A DNA stretch of 27,032 nt from a virus: IMG/VR virus record IMGVR_UViG_3300009466_000014, positions 1 to 27,032 of that record; one strand, 5' to 3'. Positions 14,529 through 16,718 of this stretch are shown piece by piece. Position 1 is the first letter of the stretch. Each line of letters opens with the position of its first letter. Below the pieces are notes generated by a model. That model had not been told where the DNA came from. It did not search any database and was given only the letters and a program-made list of their open reading frames with translations. The translations under genes were made by a program, and so were the position numbers.

Positions 14529-14544
14529 AAGATGTCTATCTGAC

Positions 14545-14552
14545 AATAAATA
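14545..14552 (+). promoter_or_regulatory. Late-type promoter motif AATAAATA
   Basis: AATAAATA is one base from the T4 late consensus. It lies just upstream of the candidate small RNA and about 30 nt before a strong terminator, with no gene between. Confidence 0.4.
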
Positions 14553-14555
14553 GTA

Positions 14556-14606
14556 TTGCTTATGTGTCGCAACTTAAGCAAAAGGGAGCAATTGCTCCCT
14601 TTTTTA
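14556..14606 (+). ncRNA. Candidate small RNA with antisense loop
   Basis: A transcript from the motif at 14545 to the terminator would be about 50 nt with two hairpins. Hairpin 1 pairs TTGCTTA (14556-14562) with TAAGCAA (14575-14581) and exposes a 12-nt loop containing TGTGTCGCAA. Hairpin 2 is the terminator. The loop is exactly complementary to TTGCGACACA in the leader of the next gene (14619-14628). This two-hairpin design is that of antisense RNAs. No expression evidence exists. Confidence 0.45.
14582..14606 (+). terminator. Intrinsic terminator with perfect palindrome
   Basis: AAGGGAGCAATTGCTCCCTT is a perfect 20-nt palindrome followed by T's (to 14605). The inner stem is GGGAGC-AATT-GCTCCC. 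It ends the 13159 unit and/or the candidate small RNA. Confidence 0.9.
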
Positions 14607-14607
14607 A

Positions 14608-14615
14608 TATAAATA
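14608..14615 (+). promoter_or_regulatory. T4 late promoter consensus TATAAATA
   Basis: This is an exact match to the T4 late -10. Transcription would start near 14620, so the mRNA of the next gene would begin at or within the TTGCGACACATAA arm. Confidence 0.6.
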
Positions 14616-14636
14616 TGATTGCGACACATAAAGCAG

Positions 14637-15038
14637 ATGAAGAAACTCTATGTAGGAGAGTTGGACAAATTGTTCAACATAGACGGATGTGGCTGGATAG
14701 AAGATGATCCAAGTAGATATACTGTAACAAGAGATTCACACTCATGGAATAAATGTACTAAAGGATTAACTACATGCCCTGAACATCAAAAAGAAATCAA
14801 TAGGCAAATGATGTTGAAAAGATATGCTGAAGGTTTGGATGTGACTGGTGCAAATAATCCAAGAGCAAAGACTTGGAAAATAATATATCAAGATGGAAGA
14901 GAGATAATCATCGGTGCATTGCAAAGATGGGCATTGGATAATGGTTATAGCAGGTCTGGTGTAAAGAACCTAGCCTACGGAAAATGGAAGAGATACAGGG
15001 ATTTGGTGTCAATTGAAGAAGTGTCACAAAGCTCTTGA
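14637..15038 (+). CDS. Homing-endonuclease-associated DNA-binding protein, NUMOD-like (133 aa)
   Basis: I chose ATG 14637 (MKKLYVGELDKLFNIDGCGW). The C-terminal half (TGANNPRAKTWKIIYQDGRE..., ending ALQRWALDNGYSRSGVKNLA, YGKWKRYRDL) matches the DNA-binding tail found behind GIY-YIG/HNH homing nucleases, with N-N-P-x-A-K-T-W-K and a helix-turn-helix-like end. The N-terminal part has two Cys and a His (WNKCTKGLTTCPEH) but no GIY-YIG or clear HNH motif. It may be a remnant or regulatory derivative of a mobile endonuclease. It is isolated by a terminator, inverted repeat and its own promoter. Confidence 0.7.
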   Translation: MKKLYVGELDKLFNIDGCGWIEDDPSRYTVTRDSHSWNKCTKGLTTCPEHQKEINRQMMLKRYAEGLDVTGANNPRAKTWKIIYQDGREIIIGALQRWALDNGYSRSGVKNLAYGKWKRYRDLVSIEEVSQSS

Positions 15039-16559: not shown

Positions 16560-16718
16560 AAAAAATATAAGTTTGTGTTATGTAATGATGACAATAGAGA
16601 GAATTATTAAGTATATACTGTATGTGTGTCCGAGTGTCTCTGGTTGTCTCCGAGTGTCTCTATGTGTGTCCGAGTGTCTCTGTTTGTCTCAGAAAGGTTC
16701 GGAGGTTCAGCAGTCTTG
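16560..16718 (-). ncRNA. Candidate minus-strand non-coding RNA
   Basis: The consensus promoter at 16725-16753 should start leftward transcription near 16718. The RNA would contain three copies of AGAGACACTCGGA spaced 20 nt apart and no long open frame. A weak possible end is a 4-bp AT stem (ATAA/TTAT) followed by six U at 16565-16560. Only the promoter is convincing; the length is a guess. Confidence 0.4.
16621..16690 (+). repeat. 20-bp tandem repeat, 3.5 copies
   Basis: Units at 16621-16640 and 16661-16680 are identical (TATGTGTGTCCGAGTGTCTC). The unit at 16641-16660 differs at its 5' half (TGGTTGTCTCCGAGTGTCTC), and a fourth half unit begins TGTTTGTCTC. Period is exactly 20, about two helical turns. 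No spacers are present, so this is not a CRISPR array. Confidence 0.95.

Follow-up and report, generated by a model that had tools for sequence, protein, structure and literature searches.

The question raised by this locus is whether the DNA in front of a homing-endonuclease-like gene encodes an antisense small RNA (sRNA) directed against the leader of that same gene. The window, which is the whole stretch of viral DNA analysed here (27,032 nucleotides, or 27 kb), resembles T4-like Synechococcus phages, among them S-SZBM1, S-H9-2, and S-PM2, in patches. The locus lies in a run of small genes, with a short upstream ORF ending at position 14529 and a conserved phage gene (phrog_1987) following from 15091. 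The late-promoter motif, the hairpin with its 12-nt loop, the terminator, the second motif, and the start codon all lie where the preliminary description had placed them (Table 1). The leader had been described as exactly complementary to the loop; the match is perfect over 13 nt, but ten of these positions are in the loop and three in the 5' strand of the stem. In T4-type late promoters, transcription starts about six bases past the motif. With this usual spacing, the sRNA start would fall at 14558, where the stem begins, and the mRNA start at about G14621, so that the mRNA would begin not with the complementary sequence, as had been proposed, but two bases inside the match. The sequence NATAAATA has been reported as the late promoter of S-PM2 (PMC2984593). 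ATAAATA occurs three times in the whole 27 kb, and two of these copies are at this locus. Both predicted RNAs are read from the + strand, the sRNA and its target therefore sharing a strand.

Table 1. Predicted elements of the sRNA-leader unit in the window
Feature	Positions	Strand	Remark or basis
Late-promoter motif 1, AATAAATA, predicted sRNA promoter	14545-14552	+	+1 predicted at 14558
Predicted sRNA, 48 nt, antisense hairpin plus intrinsic terminator	14558-14605	+	Predicted fold -22.2 kcal/mol; architecture kept in 162 distinct units
Antisense hairpin, GCTTA-[TGTGTCGCAACT]-TAAGC, 5-bp stem and 12-nt loop	14558-14579	+	Local stem kept across units
Antisense segment, TTATGTGTCGCAA	14560-14572	+	Perfect complement of the leader
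Intrinsic terminator, GGGAGCAATTGCTCCC-TTTTTT	14584-14605	+	Stem 14584-14599, six T up to 14605
Late-promoter motif 2, TATAAATA, predicted mRNA promoter	14608-14615	+	+1 predicted near 14621
TTGCGACACATAA, exact complement of 14560-14572	14619-14631	+	Sequence
Leader arm, TTGCGACACATAAAGC, complementary to the sRNA 5' end with one bulged A	14619-14634	+	Duplex, covariation
AAAGCAG, directly before the start codon	14630-14636	+	Near-invariant in alignment A1, yet included in one search pattern
ORF, 133 aa, ATG at 14637	14637-15038	+	C-terminal half related to the C-terminal part of GIY-YIG homing endonucleases

The arms form the single case in the window of a 13-bp perfect inverted repeat with arms within 60 nt. 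An inverted repeat of such length and geometry is held by 3% of Markov-1 resampled windows, so the sequence of the window alone is suggestive and gives no proof of function. The significance of the complementarity comes instead from relatives, which keep the pairing while the sequence changes. No match at the gathering score of Rfam 15 was obtained for the window and nine loci.

Querying viral contigs with the window ORF yielded 13 loci, the complete ones of which have the same architecture upstream with different sequences, for example, the loop and leader TTATTCGTGGTT with AACCACGAATAA and TTGTTTGTTTGGC with GCCAAACAAACAA. Two scans, for the leader ending alone (TATAAATA-N-AAAGCAGATG) and for the hairpin plus the second motif, together gave 62 units with 25 distinct arm/leader combinations, and the sole criteria for choosing these were AAAG[CT]AG at the leader end and TAAATA-N(4-8)-GCTT upstream. 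A leader-blind pattern, consisting of the hairpin and the second motif and nothing of the leader, gave 120 matches and 72 distinct combinations. A broad long-window duplex scan was too noisy, and arm and leader were therefore confined to promoter-defined windows. Tandem late motifs with a pairing arm, scanned over all fetched loci, revealed 162 distinct units, in a few of which the ORF is short or truncated; at least one of them (L140) appears to be a chance match. Six of these units are in the isolate S-SRM01, three in B23, and one in S-B68, and S-PM2 contains no unit of this type. A terminator-like hairpin with a T run stands ahead of the second motif in 155 of the 162 units, and the spacing from the first TAAATA to GCTT is exactly 5 nt in 66/66 rows, with 4 to 8 nt allowed.

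The proteins encoded downstream of the 162 units, sorted by sequence motifs, are nearly all homing-endonuclease-like (GIY-YIG, HNH, and NUMOD-like), with single cases of a weak PD-(D/E)XK match, an HNH_3 protein, and a TnpB/OrfB_IS605 protein (PF01385, E=2e-25). One arm sequence can precede different nuclease families, and similar proteins carry different arms. The TnpB (OrfB_IS605) gene is located behind an sRNA-leader unit in a viral contig (L385:8346-9245, - strand), so that an RNA-guided nuclease has its control module in common with homing endonucleases. At L272:11292, L272:22516, and L273:1598, the annotation of cyanophage endonuclease genes reads "translation initiation factor 2" or places the start codon within the small-RNA region.

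Arm and leader change together. For the 25 combinations, the own duplex has a mean energy of -19.5 kcal/mol versus -10.2 kcal/mol for swapped partners, and none of 20,000 permutations attained the observed sum. The 72 leader-blind combinations gave -21.9 versus -10.0 kcal/mol when permuted (standard deviation of the mean, 0.45), and 93% of them pair at -15 kcal/mol or better, the exceptions being one chance match and four RNA genes that stand alone, with no leader to match. In the gap-free subset, 13 of 15 arm-leader pairs changed on both sides, and the covariation score was 1.025 versus 0.27 for shuffled and about 0.1 for slid sequences. The rows behind this score were preselected for full pairing, so the energy tests on the 25 and 72 combinations are less biased; the swapped-partner controls ignore kinship among the sequences. 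The preliminary description had named as a refutation relatives in which loop and leader both change without keeping complementarity, and in the relatives both are altered with complementarity retained.

Two partners match the 5' hairpin strand, namely the local 3' strand and the leader, and the three strands change together, as in the sets GCTTA/TAAGC/TAAAGC and GCTTG/CAAGC/CAAAGC. An unmatched pair is present in some units (L071 and L101). Across units, the local stem comprises 468 Watson-Crick, 67 G-U, and 7 A-C cells, with G-U and A-C scored alike. A DNA dyad would show both mismatches equally, since G-T on one strand is A-C on the opposite strand, and the excess of G-U therefore speaks for RNA rather than DNA. 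Over the 162 units, pairing declines to the level of swapped partners no more than about 1 nt from each of the two predicted +1 positions. These patterns make pairing at the RNA level close to certain, with pairing in the cell remaining an inference. The leader A (UAAAGC against GCUUA; in the window, for example, 14630-14632) is bulged in nearly all class I duplexes, which may keep an AAAG resembling a Shine-Dalgarno sequence intact or protect the duplex from a nuclease. The AAAGCAG in front of the start codon is possibly a weak Shine-Dalgarno sequence that the duplex would hide.

Comparison with other contigs revealed a clean empty site, with the same flanks and no insert, for 33 of the 165 units tested. 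Homology to the empty site breaks off close to the first late motif (median, -8 nt) and is found again from the endonuclease stop codon onward (median, -1 nt), indicating that the RNA gene and the endonuclease gene were gained together. In several cases, the first late motif is also present in the empty site, and some units may thus have landed behind a pre-existing late promoter. No empty site was found for the copy in the window among the loci compared. Within one genome, the units are predicted from their sequences to be largely orthogonal, as the six own pairs of S-SRM01 reach -19 to -25 kcal/mol and the other combinations -2 to -15 kcal/mol.

Viruses of cyanobacteria thus appear to carry homing endonuclease genes with their own matched antisense RNAs, the pairs changing in step. 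The architecture, complementarity, three-way covariation, fixed promoter spacing, joint insertion, and predicted orthogonality of the units can be read from the DNA. We consider it probable, on comparative evidence alone and with no transcript seen so far, that an antisense sRNA, encoded in tandem, moves together with the endonuclease gene and prevents its translation, acting in trans. From the first late promoter, an RNA of about 48 nt would run from the base of the hairpin to the terminator, and the second, about 60 bp downstream, would produce the endonuclease mRNA, with a leader of about 16 nt complementary to the loop and the 5' stem strand of the RNA. The loop would make the first contact, after which the hairpin would open and the duplex would extend over the leader as far as the bases preceding the start codon, block ribosome binding, and probably mark the mRNA for decay. 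As the RNA and the gene are inserted jointly, the brake would move with the gene, and within one genome each cassette has its own pair, predicted to be largely orthogonal. Transcription of the RNA, its action in trans, and translational repression are inferred, as is the purpose (limiting toxic cleavage; dosage control as in IS10). The exact promoter-hairpin spacing, the separate hairpin, the retained terminator, and the limits of pairing at both predicted starts fit two separately started RNAs and support the sRNA-leader pairing proposed from the window alone. Both promoters are of the late type, and the sRNA would therefore act while the gene is being expressed, which counts against a brake by antisense RNA.

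The main rival, which we judge unlikely, is a hairpin formed in cis as in phage T4 I-TevI. An early or middle read-through transcript would pair the arm with the leader and hide the start codon, and the late promoter between the arms would free the mRNA late in infection. The topology is the same as that of the T4 endonuclease genes, in which late transcripts are missing the inhibitory 5' arm (PMC2988022), and the predicted fold of the read-through RNA of the present unit also joins the arms in cis (-43 kcal/mol). However, a cis hairpin leaves unexplained why a late motif stands at exactly 5 nt from the arm (66/66 rows), why a terminator lies between the arms (155/162), why a local hairpin is separately conserved, and why pairing ends at the predicted +1 of the mRNA. 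A second class of units is compatible with a cis device. In the 31 distinct class II units (GGGCAGCA...TGCGTAAGTCCCA), loop-leader complementarity is kept (-26.0 versus -17.4 kcal/mol) without a constant upstream late motif, as expected of such a device, and these units may work by cis folding of a read-through transcript. Class II units also occur in S-SRM01 and Sf-CH5. In the examples L449-L500, L274:900-1000, and L272:37560-37664, the leader pairing reaches the start codon and, unlike in class I, no clear terminator is present.

It is very improbable that the symmetry belongs to the DNA, either as an operator bound by the endonuclease or as the end of a mobile element, maintained by selection or template switching. 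I-TevI is known to repress itself through an operator at its late promoter (PMC2988022), and the inserted unit does begin at or near the first late motif, which agrees with one half of an earlier suggestion that the arms mark the edge of a mobile element. The other end of the insertion is the endonuclease stop codon and not the second arm; moreover, a DNA repeat does not account for the strong bias for G-U over A-C in the local stem, for the conserved third strand, or for arms that are common to different nuclease families and differ between similar proteins. A chance inverted repeat between a terminator and a promoter, which the 3% of resampled windows would allow, is refuted by the covariation and by the recurrence of the architecture with altered yet complementary sequences in 162 distinct units and can practically be dismissed.

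Phage homing endonucleases are tightly timed, through cis hairpins and autorepression. In type I toxin-antitoxin systems (istR/tisB and zor/orz), a separately encoded sRNA gene lies beside a harmful gene and pairs extensively with the mRNA leader; the present units differ in that their product is a homing endonuclease, they are mobile in phage genomes, and they have tandem late promoters. An RNA structure silences T4 I-TevI, segB, and Aeh1 mobE early, and its upstream arm is absent from the late mRNA (PMC2988022). Like the present unit, these are endonuclease genes of T4-like phages with a late promoter directly before the gene and an arm complementary to the region before the start, and motif 2 lies between the arms here as well, so a late mRNA would lack the upstream arm. 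The present arm, however, has its own late motif at a fixed spacing, its own hairpin, and a terminator, from which a separate RNA is expected, and the pairing sequence differs among units. In IS10, an antisense RNA over the initiation region limits the transposase, more strongly at higher copy number (PMC5006887). RNA-OUT and RNA-IN resemble the present pair as an antisense RNA of a mobile element against the mRNA 5' end of an enzyme acting on DNA, possibly for dosage control, and the complementarity and covariation with the initiation region of the enzyme mRNA agree with this type as far as sequence comparison can tell. The IS10 enzyme is a transposase and not a homing endonuclease, and RNA-OUT is read from the opposite strand of the same DNA, whereas the present sRNA is encoded in tandem on the same strand, so both partners must evolve together. 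By analogy, the present unit may be regarded as the setting of T4 endonuclease control combined with the logic of IS10, with the antisense RNA in tandem. CfrI of S-PM2 likewise belongs to a T4-like cyanophage and is linked to a homing-endonuclease gene, but this RNA of about 225 nt lies on the opposite strand, antisense to both psbA and the endonuclease gene (PMC2984593, PMC12197685); the present sRNA and its target share a strand, and CfrI is a different RNA. No description of such a unit was found in Rfam or in the searchable papers, with most subscription journals outside the literature covered.

A more speculative extension, which we regard as possible but doubtful, is that the cassettes (GIY-YIG, HNH, probably PD-(D/E)XK, and one TnpB) form a coded set with swappable antisense RNAs. 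Cassettes of the same type would limit each other by dose and those of different types would not interfere, and in mixed infection a phage already producing the RNA would shut off a newly arriving endonuclease of its own type, amounting to an RNA-based incompatibility among selfish genes within viruses. Apart from this extension, a dedicated antisense RNA that is borne by the gene, has its own code, and is common to unrelated nuclease families would constitute a new layer of control for common cyanophage selfish genes. It would make testable how homing endonuclease genes restrain the harm they do and whether they disturb one another in coinfection. The dozens of natural pairs of sRNA and leader, apparently orthogonal, would moreover serve as a ready set of translational switches. 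Solitary sRNA genes without a matching leader occur at L356:7543, L358:14207, L381:4075 / L389:429 (- strand), and L445:5272 (- strand). They were considered as independent immunity genes, which was rejected because most of their terminators are decayed and they look like remnants.

The C-terminal half of the window ORF shares 54 to 69% identity with the C-terminal part of the GIY-YIG proteins L005 and L007-L010, and the ORF thereby meets the test of homology to the DNA-binding part of homing endonucleases. The designation of the gene as homing-endonuclease-like consequently holds for this half only, as no nuclease motif (GIY-YIG, HNH, PD-(D/E)XK, or other) was recognised, Pfam gave no match, and PHROG and NCBIfam gave none that was significant. 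The ORF may be a nuclease-less relative or may bear an unrecognised nuclease domain. Its structure model (pLDDT, 73; pTM, 0.41; best fold match, I-HmuI with E=0.23) was rejected as too weak a basis for assigning a function. No direct homologue of the ORF was detected in named phages by tblastn, no relatives were found in genome contigs, and a back-translation search found no relatives of the downstream gene among viral contigs. Farther downstream, positions 16624 to 16690 of the window contain about 3.3 tandem copies of the 20-bp unit TGTCTCCGAGTGTCTCTGTT in a stretch with no convincing genes.
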